Below the pieces are notes generated by a model. That model saw only the letters and a program-made list of their open reading frames with translations, was not told where the DNA came from and ran no database searches. The position numbers and the translations under genes are program-made. DNA of 39,494 nt, taken from the NCBI GenBank assembly GCA_021732845.1, contig JAKFUF010000118.1, positions 1 through 39,494 on the forward strand, written 5' to 3'. The stretch comes from Planctomycetaceae bacterium. GTDB lineage: Bacteria > Planctomycetota > Planctomycetia > Planctomycetales > Planctomycetaceae. Positions 12,028 to 18,126 of the stretch are shown here, piece after piece; position 1 is the first letter of the stretch, and every line of letters begins with the position of its first letter.

Positions 12028-12413
12028 GCCTCACACTTCAATTCCTGATTACCACTGACTCGCGATCCGCACCGGGGACGCGGGGCAACTCCCAAACTGA
12101 GGCTGGCCGGCCGAATTGACGGTATCGTCGACGGCCGGCCCGTGAGGCTGGTTGCGGAGAGACAAGACCTGGTTCTCGCCGTGGGACGCTGCCGGACTCT
12201 ACTGACGATCCGACGCAGTTCACGCTCAGTCATTGAATCTCTCCGTGAGTTTCTCACGCGATCTGACATCCGCTTGTTCGTTCGGATAAGGTGGTTGGGC
12301 AGAGTCGAAGTGCATCCGAATCCGTCTTTCTTGGTTCGAATGCTGCTTCCCCTGGAGTGATGTCGACTTTCAATCGGTGAGATGACCAGTGCTGCAGCAG
12401 ATGGGATTCCAGG
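12028..12413. other. Intergenic region with one strong stem-loop
   Basis: No gene is supported. A 9-bp inverted repeat, GGCCGGCCG (12105-12113) with CGGCCGGCC (12132-12140), could end transcription from the fasciclin gene, although no T run follows. Confidence 0.45.
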
Positions 12414-13928
12414 ATGTCGGGGTTGATCTTATTGACCGGAGCCACAGGTTATGTGGGGGGGCGACTTTTGTCGCTGCTGCAGCAACATGGCATCCACGTT
12501 CGCTGCGTGACGCGGCGGCCTGCAGCCTTGCTGGATCGGATCAACACGACCACCGAGGTTGTGGCAGGAGATGTCTTCGATCCCCAATCCCTGCAAGCCG
12601 CATTCGAGGGAGTGGGGACCGCCTACTACTTCGTCCATTCGATGGGCGACAACCGCGACTTTGAATCCCAGGATCGGATCGCGGCGGAAAACTTTGCGAA
12701 AGCCGCCACACATGCCGGAGTGCGTCGCATAGTCTATCTGGGCGGACTAGGCAATCCCGACGAGAAGCTCTCCAAACACCTCCGCAGTCGCCAGGAGACG
12801 GGAGATGTTTTGCGGGTCCATCACCCTCAAGTGATTGAGTTTCGTGCCTCGATAGTGATCGGTTCCGGCAGCCTGTCGTTCGAGATGATCCGGGCACTCG
12901 TCGAGCGACTGCCGATCATGATCTGCCCGCGGTGGGTTCAGGTAAAAGCACAGCCGATCGCCGTCGAAGACCTGCTGGCTTATCTGATCGCCGTTCTGGA
13001 ACTCCCCGCCTCTGCTTCCCAGGTTTACGAGATTGGCGGTCCCGACCAGGTCTCTTATGGCCAGATCATGCAGGAGTATGCCCGGCAACGGGGGCTCACG
13101 CGGTGGATGATTCCTGTGCCACTTCTGACGCCCTACCTGTCGAGCCTCTGGTTGGGGCTCGTCACCCCGCTGTACGCCCGAGTCGGTCGGAAACTCGTCG
13201 AAAGCCTGCGGAACCCGACGCTCGTCTCGAACAACCTGGCCGAATCGGTGTTCGTTGTCCGTGCCCGTTCCGTGCGTGATGCGATTGCTCGGGCGCTGGT
13301 AAACGAAGATCGGGAGTTCGCGGAAACCCGCTGGTCAGATGCAATGTCCTCGGCCGGTCAGTCGCAATCGTGGGGCGGTGACCGATACGGCTCGCGGCTC
13401 GTGGATTCGCGGACGATCACGGTGACGGTTCCTCCCGCGCAAGCGTTCGCGCCGATTCGCCGCATCGGCGGTCGGACCGGCTGGTACTACGGGAACTGGT
13501 TGTGGTCGCTGCGCGGATTCTTGGACTTACTCATCGGTGGAGTCGGTGTCCGCCGCAGCCGGCGTGATCCAGACAACCTGCATGTGGGCGAGCCGCTCGA
13601 CTTCTGGCGTGTGGAAGTTTTCGAGTCGGATCACCGACTGCGCCTGCAGGCCGAGATGAAGCTACCGGGGCGGGCGTGGCTGGAATTCGAGGTCAATCCT
13701 TGCGAGCAAGGAAGTACGATTCGCCAAACGGCGATTTTCGATCCCTTGGGGCTGGCCGGGCTGCTGTATTGGTACGGAATCTATCCGCTCCACCAATTCG
13801 TGTTCGCTGGCATGCTCCGGAATCTCGCCCGCGCTGCCGAAAGTTCCGATGGTGATGCTGCACAGCCACACGACATCGTGATCGAGGCGACCGCTCCGGA
13901 AACGCATTCATCGGGAGCCCAGTTGTGA
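12414..13928 (+). CDS. Atypical SDR/NAD(P)-binding protein with C-terminal DUF2867 domain
   Basis: This 504-residue protein has an N-terminal Rossmann domain with TGATGYVGG at 8-16 and the features of NmrA/atypical SDR proteins (about 1-300), including an Asp-Val after the third strand (VVAGDVFD) and YFVHSMG. From about residue 330 to 485 it carries a DUF2867-type domain (WYYGNWLWSLRGFLDLL, LHVGEPLDFWRVE). The pairing is known from bacterial proteins of unclear substrate. It heads a run of plus-strand genes that reads through a membrane protein, an SRPBCC protein, an FAD oxidoreductase, another membrane protein and a peroxiredoxin. Similar sets occur in light- or oxidative-stress-linked clusters elsewhere, so a redox or isoprenoid role is possible but not shown. 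Confidence 0.82.
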   Translation: MSGLILLTGATGYVGGRLLSLLQQHGIHVRCVTRRPAALLDRINTTTEVVAGDVFDPQSLQAAFEGVGTAYYFVHSMGDNRDFESQDRIAAENFAKAATHAGVRRIVYLGGLGNPDEKLSKHLRSRQETGDVLRVHHPQVIEFRASIVIGSGSLSFEMIRALVERLPIMICPRWVQVKAQPIAVEDLLAYLIAVLELPASASQVYEIGGPDQVSYGQIMQEYARQRGLTRWMIPVPLLTPYLSSLWLGLVTPLYARVGRKLVESLRNPTLVSNNLAESVFVVRARSVRDAIARALVNEDREFAETRWSDAMSSAGQSQSWGGDRYGSRLVDSRTITVTVPPAQAFAPIRRIGGRTGWYYGNWLWSLRGFLDLLIGGVGVRRSRRDPDNLHVGEPLDFWRVEVFESDHRLRLQAEMKLPGRAWLEFEVNPCEQGSTIRQTAIFDPLGLAGLLYWYGIYPLHQFVFAGMLRNLARAAESSDGDAAQPHDIVIEATAPETHSSGAQL

Positions 13929-13948
13929 TCGAAAGCAAGGAGAGTGGC

Positions 13949-14281
13949 ATGAGTCTCTCGTCAGACGGATCACAATCGCCGCCTTGGGCCAGTCGTTGGC
14001 TCTGGGCCGCGGGAATCTACAACCTGACTTGGGGAACACTGACCATCGCGTGGCCCCACCTGCTGTTCGACATCACCGGTGCCGAGCGGATCAATTATCC
14101 CGAAATCTGGCAGTGTGTCGGAATGATCGTCGGTGTCTACGGGATCGGATACCTCATCGCAGCCAGCGACTCGCACACTCATTGGCCGATCGTGCTCGTC
14201 GGACTGTTGGGCAAAGTCTTCGGCCCAATCGGGTTTCTGGTGGCACTCCTGCGCGGGACGTTTCCCCCCTCTTCGGATTGA
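13949..14281 (+). CDS. Small membrane protein of unknown function
   Basis: This is a 110-residue protein with about four hydrophobic segments (LWAAGIYNLTWGTLTIAW, the region around IWQCVGMIVGVYGIGYLIA, IVLVGLLGKVFGPIGFLVAL). An AAGGAG site six bases before the ATG at 13949 decides the start; a GTG at 13925 would overlap the previous gene's end. It follows the SDR-DUF2867 gene by 20 nt, so it is probably translated from the same transcript. The family is not identified. Confidence 0.75.
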   Translation: MSLSSDGSQSPPWASRWLWAAGIYNLTWGTLTIAWPHLLFDITGAERINYPEIWQCVGMIVGVYGIGYLIAASDSHTHWPIVLVGLLGKVFGPIGFLVALLRGTFPPSSD

Positions 14282-14370
14282 CGAGCCTGACCAAAGACGT
14301 GCTCTGGTGGATTCCGTAAACCATGATCCTGCGGGATGCGGCAAAGCACCAGAGAGCGACATCGCAGTCG

Positions 14371-14876
14371 ATGGGAATTGCGCAACAGCAGTACGTTAAA
14401 CAAACCCCAATCAATGCTCCCCCGGATGTGGTTTTTCGTTTTCACGAAGGCCCAGATGCGTTGCCGCATCTCATCCCGCCGTGGGAGAATATGAAAATGG
14501 TCGAGTCTGCCGGGTCTCTTCGGCCTGGCAGCCGGGTAGCCGGGTGGTCCTGCGTGGAAGTCTCGGAATCATACCGATTCAATGGATTGCCATTCATACG
14601 GAGTGCGATCCGCCGCACATGTTCGCGGATCGACAGGAATCGGGACCGTTTGCCTCTTGGTATTACCGCCATCGCTTTCTCGATGACGGACAAGGCGGAA
14701 CCCTTTTGAGGGACGAGGTCGAATATGCAGTTCCCTTCGGAGTGTTTGGGCAATGGCTCGGCGGCTGGCTTGTTCGCCGCAAACTGGAAGCCATGTTCGC
14801 CTACCGCCATGAGAAGACGCGGAGCTTGATCGAATCTGGGGAATGGACGAGTGCGGAATCGGCGAGCGAAAGGTAA
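14371..14876 (+). pseudogene. SRPBCC-family protein broken by an 8-bp tandem duplication
   Basis: The gene is split between two frames. The first gives the SRPBCC start (APPDVVFRFHEGPDALPHL to SLRPGSRV); the second gives the remainder (VVLRGSLG, MFADRQESGPFASWYYRHRF, LLRDEVEYAVPFG, WLVRRKLEAMFAYRHE). They meet at 14530-14545, where the 8 bases AGCCGGGT occur twice in tandem. Removing one copy joins the frames into a protein of about 165 residues. SRPBCC proteins form a hydrophobic ligand pocket. Slippage is the simplest cause; a sequencing error of this form is less likely. It lies 9 nt before the FAD oxidoreductase gene. Confidence 0.8.
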
Positions 14877-14885
14877 CAACGCCTC

Positions 14886-16127
14886 ATGAATCATGATGTT
14901 CTGATCGTCGGGGCGGGACTATCCGGGTTGTGCAGCGCCCGCCAATTGCAGCAGCAGGGTATCCGCTGCCTGGTGCTGGAGGCTTCCGACGGTGTCGGGG
15001 GCCGCATCCGTACTGATATCGTGGATGGTTTTCGCCTGGACCGAGGCTTTCAGGTCTTCTTGACCAGTTACCCGGAAGCAAAGGCGAACCTGGATTATGA
15101 GGCGTTGGACCTGAAGCCGTTTCTGCCAGGTGCTCTGGTTCGCTACGGTGGCCGGTTTCACGAACTGACCGACCCCTGGCGGCGTCCGTTGTCCGCCATC
15201 CGTTCGTTGATCTCGCCCATCGGCTCCTTCCCCGACAAGCTACGCGTCGCTGTTTTTCGTTCAAGATCGCTGTGTGGCACAATTGAGGACCGTTTTCGCG
15301 ACCCCGAAACCACATCCCTCCAGGCACTTCAAGATGCCGGATTCTCGCCGTCGATGATCGAGCGGTTCTTCCGGCCGTTTCTGGGCGGCATCTTTCTCGA
15401 CTCCGAGCTGCGGACTTCCAGCCGCATGCTGAACTTCGTGTTTCGCATGTTCTCCTTGGGAAATGCTTGCCTGCCTGCCCAGGGGATGGAAGCCATCCCG
15501 CGACACCTTGCGGCGGCGTTGCCGCCCGACAGCATCCGGCTGGGAGCCCGGGTGGTCCAAGTGGGACCTGGTGCGGTGACACTCTCCACTGGTGAAGAGC
15601 TGCGTGCCAAATCCGTGGTAGGCGCGGTGCCGTAAAGTAAAGGCACGTCGTGCCTTGTCCCGTCGGGGAAATCGTGTCACCCAGCAGGTCCGCGGCCGCA
15701 CGGCCCTCGACCGCCACCCCCCGTTACCCAACCGCTGCTTGTATTAAACGGGGATGGTCGCGGCCCGATCAACAATCTCTGCGTCCCCACCGTCGCCGCA
15801 CCTTCCTATGGCCCGGGCGACAAGAGCCTCGTCTCGGTGACAGTCTTGGGCACGGGGAACGATCCTGATCGCCTCCTGGCGGAGGTGCGCGAGCAGCTGG
15901 GCGAATGGTTCGGCACCGTGATCCAGGACTGGCGTCATTTGCGAACGTATTCCATTCCTTACGCCCTTCCCGCTCAGAGCCCGCCGGCGTTGAATGTGCA
16001 AGAGCGCCCCGTTCGCTGGCAGTCCGGAATCTACGTCTGTGGAGATCATCGAGACAACGCATCCATCCAAGGTGCGATGGTCTCGGGGCGTCGAGTTGCG
16101 GAAGCCGTATTGAAGGATATGGCATGA
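14886..16127 (+). pseudogene. FAD-dependent amine oxidase-like protein interrupted by a 97-bp internal inversion
   Basis: The first 244 or so codons encode an FAD-binding oxidoreductase of the phytoene desaturase/protoporphyrinogen oxidase type: VLIVGAGLSG near the start, then VLEASDGVGGRIRTD. A stop appears at 15633-15635. The C-terminal part resumes in the same frame from 15718 (TQPLLVLNGDGRGPINNLC) and ends at 16127 with the usual FAD-closing segment GIYVCGDHRDNASIQGAM. The missing middle (VAVEGRAAADLLGD, then TTCLYFTA) is found on the opposite strand between 15621 and 15717. Flipping that segment restores one 413-residue frame. The stop overlaps the next gene's ATG. Confidence 0.85.
15621..15717 (-). 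other. Inverted segment inside the FAD oxidoreductase gene
   Basis: Read on the minus strand from 15717, this segment gives 32 codons that fit exactly the gap in the surrounding plus-strand gene, and one base left over completes the junction codon. The flanks carry short imperfect inverted repeats (GGTAGGCG at the left, GGTGGCG read in reverse at the right) that could have promoted the flip. Confidence 0.75.
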
Positions 16128-16573
16128 ACGACCCTCTCATCCGACTTTTGTTCCTGGCCCACCTTGGATCATCCCTGTACATGGTAGGGCTCATTTGGTT
16201 TGTGCAGGTTGTGCACTACCCGCTCTTTGCCAGCGTCGGAAATCTGGAATTTCCATCCTACGAACAGCGTCACACGGCTCTCACCACTTGGGTGGTCGCA
16301 CCCCCGATGCTGATCGAAGGGGCAACCGCAGTGCTCCTGATTTTGTTCCGCCCGACCGGTGTCCCAGAGTGGTCCGTCTGGTCCGGATTGGCACTGTTGG
16401 CATTGAGTTGGTTGTCGACGGTCTTTATCCAGGTTCCCTGTCACAATGTATTGTCTAAAGTCTTCGACCCGCTTGTTCATCAACGCCTCGTCTCGACCAA
16501 TTGGTTGCGGACCGCCGCCTGGAGCCTGCACGGGGGCTTGGTGCTGTGGATGGCATGGTCATCGTTCAGTTGA
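16124..16573 (+). CDS. Four-helix membrane protein of unknown function
   Basis: This 149-residue protein has four hydrophobic helices (about 8-32, 52-75, 80-102, 128-147). Its start overlaps the stop of the FAD gene (ATGA), indicating translational coupling and a shared transcript. Histidines and a cysteine occur at helix ends (VVHYPLF, VPCHNVLS), which could hint at a cofactor, but I cannot name the family. Confidence 0.78.
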   Translation: MNDPLIRLLFLAHLGSSLYMVGLIWFVQVVHYPLFASVGNLEFPSYEQRHTALTTWVVAPPMLIEGATAVLLILFRPTGVPEWSVWSGLALLALSWLSTVFIQVPCHNVLSKVFDPLVHQRLVSTNWLRTAAWSLHGGLVLWMAWSSFS

Positions 16574-16608
16574 GGCATACCGACAACGCAGATTCTGGGA
16601 GAACAAAC

Positions 16609-17079
16609 GTGGCAAGATTTGAAGTGGGCGACCATGCACCGGACTTTTCCGCGACGACGCATGACGGCAACAAGATCCGTCTGGCCGACTTCTTGGGAAA
16701 GCGTGCGTTAGTTCTGTTCTTCTACCCCAAAGACGGCACGCCGATTTGCACACAAGAGGCGTGCGCCTTTCGCGACTCGTATGAGCAATTCATCGACGCT
16801 GGGGCGGACGTGATCGGCGTCAGCGGTGATACCGAGGAAAGTCACCGCACATTCGCGCGGCAGCACAAGTTGTCGTTCCCCTTGATCAGCGACATGGACG
16901 GCTCGCTGCGCAAGGCATTTGCGGTTCCAAAAACGCTGGGGCTTTTTCCGGGGCGGGTCACTTACGTCATCGATCAAGCAGGGATCATCCGACAAATCTT
17001 CTCGGCACAATTCGCCTCGGACGAACATGTCCGACAGGCTTTGACCGCCGTGGGTGCGGCAACCAGATCTCCTCAGTAA
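16609..17079 (+). CDS. bcp: Peroxiredoxin of the Bcp/PrxQ type
   Basis: This 156-residue thioredoxin-fold protein reduces hydrogen and organic peroxides. The core motif FFYPKDGTPICTQEACAF contains the peroxidatic Cys47 and, five residues on, Cys52 as resolving cysteine, the PrxQ arrangement. The GTG at 16609 with GGGAG upstream is chosen over an in-frame ATG at 16555 inside the preceding gene. It closes the redox gene run, 35 nt after the membrane protein gene. Confidence 0.9.
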   Translation: MARFEVGDHAPDFSATTHDGNKIRLADFLGKRALVLFFYPKDGTPICTQEACAFRDSYEQFIDAGADVIGVSGDTEESHRTFARQHKLSFPLISDMDGSLRKAFAVPKTLGLFPGRVTYVIDQAGIIRQIFSAQFASDEHVRQALTAVGAATRSPQ

Positions 17080-17103
17080 TGTCACTTGCCTAATAAATGA
17101 ACG

Positions 17104-18126
17104 ATGCGGATACCAATGAAGACAATCCTAAGACTGTTTCTCGCACTCATCACCCTCGCCTCCTTAGGTATGGTTTGGGGCCAGTTGGCCAGGAAAGGCG
17201 CCCAGGCGATTCCCGAGGGCCATGTGGTCTTAACGCTGCTGGTTGGCGACTTGGAGCGAGAATGTCTCGTCCATCTCCCGCCTGGCTATGACAAAACCAA
17301 GCCCGTGCCGCTGGTCATCTCGTTTCACGGCGGCGGCGGGACGGGCATCAATGCGATGAAGGAGACGGGCTGGTCGGCAAAGGCGGACGCGGAGGGATTC
17401 ATCGTCGCGTATCCCGAGGGCGTGCGACCGGATGCCGTGAAACCGCCAAGCCTGCGCAACAACATGCAGACATGGAATGATGGCTCCGGTCGCTTCTACT
17501 CCGCCGAGCAGAAAATCGACGACGTGGCTTTCATCCGCGTGCTGATCGAAAAACTCAGCGTGAATTACGCGATTGATCAGCGCCGCATCTTCGCGACCGG
17601 TTTCTCGAATGGAGCGTCGATGGCCTTTCGCGTCGGTGCCGAACTCGCCGATCGCATCGCCGCTGTCGCCCCGCATTCCGGCGCGTGCTGGTCGGAGACC
17701 GTAAAACCCTCGCGCGCGATTTCGCTCTGCTATCTCACCGGCACGGCGGACACATTGAACCCGCTCGACGGCGGTTTTCCGAAGCTGGCACTCGGCGGCA
17801 AGGATCAAGGCGGCAAACCGAAGCCGCCCGTGATCGACAGCATTCTGAAGTGGGCAAAGACATTGGGCTGCCCCGAAACACCCGTGCAAGACGACACGAA
17901 GAATGGGGTGCGCACGCGCGGCTTCGGTCCGGGACGCGACGGCGCGGAAGTTGTCTTCATCACTATCGAAGGCCTCGGCCACAACTGGGCGGGCGGCGTC
18001 GGACAGGCGCCGGAATTCATGGTCGGCAAGAACACGGACAAACTCAAAGCCACGGACGTCATCTGGAATTTCTTCCAAGTACATGGCAAGGCTTCTTCGT
18101 CCGCCATTGACAAGGAGAAACCATGA
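17104..18126 (+). CDS. Secreted PHB-depolymerase/feruloyl-esterase-like hydrolase
   Basis: This protein of up to 340 residues (an ATG four codons downstream is equally possible) has a signal peptide at the N-terminus. It has the alpha/beta-hydrolase features of the LpqC/poly(3-hydroxybutyrate) depolymerase group: oxyanion loop SFHGGGG near 73-79, nucleophile in GFSNGA with Ser168, a late Asp region (TGTADTLNP) and a His in EGLGHNWAGG. It probably cleaves ester bonds in polymers or plant-derived material outside the cytoplasm; the substrate is not deducible. Its stop overlaps the next gene's start (ATGA), which is a paralogue. Confidence 0.88.
   Translation: MRIPMKTILRLFLALITLASLGMVWGQLARKGAQAIPEGHVVLTLLVGDLERECLVHLPPGYDKTKPVPLVISFHGGGGTGINAMKETGWSAKADAEGFIVAYPEGVRPDAVKPPSLRNNMQTWNDGSGRFYSAEQKIDDVAFIRVLIEKLSVNYAIDQRRIFATGFSNGASMAFRVGAELADRIAAVAPHSGACWSETVKPSRAISLCYLTGTADTLNPLDGGFPKLALGGKDQGGKPKPPVIDSILKWAKTLGCPETPVQDDTKNGVRTRGFGPGRDGAEVVFITIEGLGHNWAGGVGQAPEFMVGKNTDKLKATDVIWNFFQVHGKASSSAIDKEKP

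Follow-up and report, generated by a model that had tools for sequence, protein, structure and literature searches.

A 97-bp inversion interrupts an FAD-dependent oxidoreductase gene in a planctomycete and very probably represents a one-way micro-inversion

Organization of the locus

The window analysed here is a whole stretch of 39,494 nucleotides, contig C82 of a 9.25-Mb genome available as a draft of 262 contigs with a completeness of 95.68%. The features considered are listed below, with the evidence for each in brackets; the genes marked as controls are intact.

12414 to 13928, forward strand: NAD(P)-binding/DUF2867 gene, control (Pfam, tblastn)
13949 to 14876, forward strand: upstream gene, broken; 311 aa in the relative L032, with an N-terminal half and a polyketide-cyclase half (tblastn, codon projection, PF03364 on the L032 ortholog)
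14886 to 16127, forward strand: FAD-dependent amine-oxidase-like oxidoreductase gene, broken by the inversion (Pfam Amino_oxidase, PF01593)
15621 to 15717, reverse strand: inverted 97-bp segment, the ends 15622 to 15716 being indistinguishable (reverse-strand match in relatives, end-point scan)
15624 to 15628, forward strand: left copy of a 5-bp inverted repeat, inside the segment (sequence)
15710 to 15714, reverse strand: right copy of the same repeat, inside the segment (sequence)
15718 to 16127, forward strand: downstream part of the oxidoreductase gene, open and severed from the N-terminal part (frame analysis, tblastn)
16124 to 16573, forward strand: small downstream gene of unassigned family, control (tblastn)
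16603 to 17079, forward strand: AhpC/TSA peroxiredoxin gene with an approximate start codon, control (Pfam, tblastn)

The oxidoreductase frame starts at 14886 and ends at a stop codon in 15633-15635, giving 249 aa; the same frame reopens at 15718 and continues until its stop at 16127. The interruption at 15635 and the resumption at 15718 correspond to those reported in the preliminary description. When the segment 15621-15717 is reverse-complemented in silico, a continuous frame of 413 aa encoding an FAD/amine oxidoreductase is obtained, as had also been claimed, so that the orientation of the segment determines whether the gene product has 249 aa (as sequenced) or 413 aa (flipped). Residues 12-249 of the fragment encoded in the window correspond to positions 1-255 of the 443 positions of the PF01593 profile, whereas the intact ortholog L036 spans the profile over its whole length (1-443). 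The best NCBIfam match of this ortholog is HpnE (hydroxysqualene dehydroxylase), with 70.6 bits for a cut-off of 283.05; the score being far under the cut-off, the oxidoreductase was not assigned to HpnE. The gene gives a single DNA match in the genome, and no second strong match was found at this completeness; two other proteins match weakly (E-values of 1.8e-4 and 3.1e-4). At 16124-16127 (ATGA), the start codon of the small downstream gene shares bases with the stop codon of the oxidoreductase. Because of this overlap of stop and start codons, truncation of the oxidoreductase may also reduce translation of the downstream gene. This small gene displays no match in Pfam or NCBIfam.

Delimitation of the inverted segment

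An open frame was also left by 4,149 of the 14,000 pairs of end points tested by flipping, and the openness of the frame alone therefore represents weak evidence. The inversion is accepted because homology to relatives shows it, rather than on the basis of the restored frame. In BLASTN comparisons, the segment lies on the opposite strand within an otherwise colinear alignment in all six of the close relatives that have kept it (L032-L036 and L040), the aligned 90-102 bp being 75-93% identical. The more distant L037 and L038 gave no reverse-strand match in blastn, and the protein comparison indicates that both are unflipped.

The ends were located by a scan of 60 x 60 (3,600) pairs of end points against five intact orthologs, using the summed identity as score. 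The top score (1490 out of 1800) was obtained for 15621-15717, tied with 15622-15716, and 15620-15718 reached 1489; the unflipped arrangement scores 1242 in the same scan. The 97-bp inversion proposed in the preliminary description at 15621-15717 is thus confirmed to the base, the orthologous stretch in the close relatives being its reverse complement. The inversion is real, well beyond chance.

Orientation of the segment in homologous loci

The contig scan for homologous loci returned 17 loci. Seven loci were treated as close relatives (L032-L036, L040 and L043), all metagenome-assembled genomes (MAGs), four of which are titled Schlesneria. The relatives are also the basis for regarding the host as a planctomycete. 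With the 413-aa protein as query, the segment was found unflipped in 20 of the 21 loci showing at least 44% identity (L003-L011 and L032-L042), and it is deleted in the last one, L043. Since L003 and L038 are identical over the compared stretch, the count of distinct loci is 19 unflipped out of 20. The weaker matches L012-L014 and L016 (23-27% identity) were excluded from the orientation count. At this level of identity, the flipped state occurs in none of the 20 loci that contain the segment, and the derived state is restricted, among the loci compared, to the lineage of the window. Judged from these sequence comparisons, the unflipped form is the ancestral one.

The same picture was obtained by blastn between the window and nine relatives, where a nested inversion appears in six comparisons, the exceptions being L043 (deletion), L037 and L038. 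Among the nine relatives themselves, no nested inversion was found in any of the 36 pairs, whose alignments add up to about 171 kb; 15 of these pairs include L037 or L038 and constitute a weak control, because blastn missed the known inversion in these two loci.

These data also bear on the idea that a shorter, useful protein is made from the flipped form. The 249-aa N-terminal product is indeed still open, but it spans little more than half of the amine-oxidase family profile, as indicated above, and the flipped form is present in none of the relatives compared. A useful role for the short product is very unlikely.

Inverted repeats, folding and recombinases

A further explanation is a reversible intragenic switch (inverton), in which a recombinase would flip the segment both ways and the window would represent the OFF state. 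The exact restoration of the reading frame and the clean ends of the segment are in favour of this explanation; the sequence around the ends is not. Short imperfect inverted repeats had been described as flanking the segment. A perfect 5-bp core does exist, but its copies lie 3 bp in from the respective ends of the segment, 81 bp apart, and it is not rare by chance: among 39,094 equally spaced pairs of positions in the window, a run of at least 5 bp occurs in 2.7% and an 8-of-14 match in 7.4%. Site-specific recombinases require inverted repeats of about 9 bp or more. Arms of such length were not found near the ends, where the longest perfect arm is this 5-bp core. A flip driven by a hairpin receives no support either, since the single-stranded fold of the region is no better than that of shuffled sequences (z of 0.79; 159 of the 200 shuffles reach an equal or better fold).

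The genome contains seven matches to PF00239 (resolvase family) and 23 matches to PF00589 (phage-integrase family), which could supply a recombinase acting from elsewhere. None of them is on contig C82 (0 of 7 and 0 of 23, respectively; the search covered these two families). Taken with the absence of flipped copies in the 20 loci containing the segment, and with the separate lesions that break the adjoining upstream gene (see below), these features make a switch quite improbable.

State of the neighbouring genes

In the oxidoreductase gene itself, the inversion is the sole lesion. The preliminary description had named other decay in this gene as a mark of a simple mutation; such decay is not found there, the other lesions being located in the adjacent upstream gene. 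The latter carries three of them in the window: the loss of one nucleotide in a run of C near 14264-14269, a TAA codon at 14317-14319, and an 8-nt tandem duplication at 14530-14545, which together spread the gene over three frames. It forms one frame in L032, L034, L035 and L043, and also in L036 save for a single stop that lies a few codons short of where the match ends. The label DoxX, considered for its N-terminal half, is given no support by Pfam. In L034 (2072-5980), extra DNA of about 1.7 kb precedes the upstream gene and about 1.2 kb follows it; the first extra piece is itself preceded by a diverged 35-codon fragment of this gene.

In three of the seven close relatives, this gene pair is damaged by other lesions. 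L043 (6001-6451) displays an out-of-frame deletion of 788 bp in the oxidoreductase. In L040 (6001-7232), the oxidoreductase is frameshifted and the N-terminal part of the upstream gene was not found. In L033 (5073-5985), the upstream gene has lost its ATG and contains a 1-nt insertion. As the relatives are draft MAGs, single lesions among these may be errors.

The three control genes of the window are whole, the proteins of the window used as queries being matched in the relatives in single frames and over nearly their full length. The exception is the peroxiredoxin of L033, whose match stops at residue 54, with unrelated sequence free of N from 7880 onward. This break corresponds to an insertion or a rearrangement, and, the peroxiredoxin being also interrupted, the decay in L033 extends beyond the gene pair.

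The number of contigs of the draft and the close clustering of several lesions could point to an artefact of assembly or library preparation, the true genome being uninverted. Against this, a balanced flip of 97 bp with almost no repeat at its ends would require reads covering both junctions, which assemblers should not invent. The draft also appears sound: in the 839 kb sampled, 329 stop-to-stop open reading frames of at least 900 nt cover 584 kb with little overlap, and the three genes neighbouring the broken pair are whole. We consider an artefact improbable.

Selection on the gene pair

A pseudogene would be marked by lesions that disable it by comparison with intact orthologs, which are present, and by relaxed selection (raised dN/dS), which was not seen over the whole oxidoreductase gene. 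With the segment turned in silico, the dN/dS of the oxidoreductase between the window and five relatives is comprised between 0.103 and 0.144, compared with 0.092-0.145 among the intact relatives. Versus L032, L033 and L034 the values are of 0.135, 0.126 and 0.144, respectively, and 0.139-0.145 among these three. For the segment alone (33 codons), dN/dS is slightly raised, 0.204-0.293 with the window against 0.128-0.248 among relatives, values that rest on 4-12 amino-acid changes per pair with the window. The upstream gene shows no excess, with 0.181 for window-L043 and 0.184 for L043-L033. The dS between the window and L043, its nearest relative, is 0.22-0.31 in three genes.

The lack of excess amino-acid change counts against the reading favoured below and implies either recent decay or continued use of the gene in part of the cells. 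Accordingly, the lesions probably fell late on the branch separating the window from L043, or unsampled cells still make use of the oxidoreductase. The codons kept at about normal dN/dS are also in line with the switch. The more particular proposal that a switch with almost no inverted repeat toggles a planctomycete FAD oxidoreductase, which would explain the about normal constraint on a gene seen in broken form, is very unlikely.

Surroundings of the gene pair and searches for further inversions

In all seven close relatives but L040 the main alignment starts near 12064, and in all but L033 it ends at 17052-17110, with 71-91% identity. Pieces of the fasciclin gene located upstream also match the relatives, at about 70-77%. 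Two other 20-kb stretches compared with three relatives gave patchy matches, mostly of 66-80% identity among the matches listed (40 first-look candidates per genome were scored, and the patchiness stems in part from this cap). The region 12064-17110 is possibly a horizontally shared gene block. For a reading of this block of 12.06-17.1 kb as a mobile element, terminal repeats of 18 nt or more pairing its ends were sought and none was found.

In L035 (11306-11478), pieces of both block ends (window positions 12064-12106, 12143-12194 and 17028-17090) are found next to each other and look like a second copy of the block whose interior has been lost. Elsewhere, the starts of two contigs of the genome (L083:1-160 and L073:1-160) are 98.75% identical, and nine contigs of G046 contain about 100 bp of this start at 81-91%, indicating a dispersed repeat.

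Further inversions could not be counted in the two 20-kb stretches or in a 7.5-kb kinase gene, the matches being too patchy. Two ab-initio methods were applied to 839 kb. A Viterbi search of coding potential for inverted pieces gave 33 candidates, and a flip-and-score test gave matches at 320 of the 386 stops tested. Both missed the known inversion and were unusable; for this reason no genome-wide rate of inversion is claimed.

Interpretation

Very probably, a single micro-inversion of about 97 bp, recent and one-way, accounts for the data; it lies in a pair of genes that is being lost in close relatives time and again, through independent events. A piece of the FAD oxidoreductase gene would have flipped once, recently, in the lineage of this bacterium. 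The flip would have ended translation after codon 249 of the 413, so that the flavoprotein lost its C-terminal part. The truncated protein is presumably non-functional, and flipping back at a useful rate is not expected. Very short inverted homology may have led to the new joints, through polymerase template switching or microhomology-mediated break repair; this mechanism is a guess, because the short repeat sits 3 bp inside the ends. The microhomology route fits somewhat better than template switching, as the perfect arms have only 5 bp, an analogy drawn from eukaryotes.

The preliminary description had left a mutation, an assembly error and a switch side by side. The ordinary disabling mutation is favoured over the switch, because the relatives are unflipped and the upstream gene is also broken; the switch is disfavoured by the lack of long repeats, of a recombinase match on the contig in the two families searched, and of a flipped relative. 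The locus provides a clean bacterial example of a gene broken by a 97-bp micro-inversion. When one genome is considered alone, such inversions are easily overlooked or mistaken for switches, and the relatives together with the state of the neighbouring genes can tell a mutation from a switch without reads. Among the matches listed, titles and the starts of abstracts revealed no paper on a micro-inversion of comparable size in a bacterial pseudogene; this was a glance and not a proof of absence.

Comparison with known systems

Intragenic invertons were reportedly described by Chanin et al. in 2024. As in invertons, including the intragenic kind, turning the segment of the window toggles the reading frame between broken and whole. 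Unlike them, this segment has no long inverted repeats and no recombinase match on its contig (two families searched), and one state was seen. To detect invertons, inverted repeats are first sought in the sequence, and the reads supporting each orientation are then tallied (PMC11892184); thousands have been catalogued, and the intragenic kind is cited in a review (PMC11868660).

The inversion of a stretch between short inverted repeats during replication would be shared with the template-switch mutations of yeast (PMC8604942) and with the quasipalindrome mutations of Escherichia coli (PMC7202029). In yeast, spacer inversions are reported only with arms over 9 bp and with spacers of a few bp, one having derived from an ancestor with 5-bp arms (PMC8604942). 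In contrast, the perfect arms in the window are of 5 bp and are separated by 81 bp.

The micro-inversions between human and chimpanzee have 17-33 nt, and the flanking repeats in primates 3 to 75 nt; microhomology-mediated break-induced replication has been proposed where the repeats lack the length or the perfection that template switching needs (PMC8755829). The inversion described here resembles them by the exact reverse-complement swap in colinear DNA and perhaps by very short inverted repeats near the ends, which are here of a length not rare by chance. It differs by its size of about 97 bp, by its location in a bacterial coding gene and by a 5-bp repeat located 3 bp inside the ends. This case is a fresh instance of an already known type of mutation.
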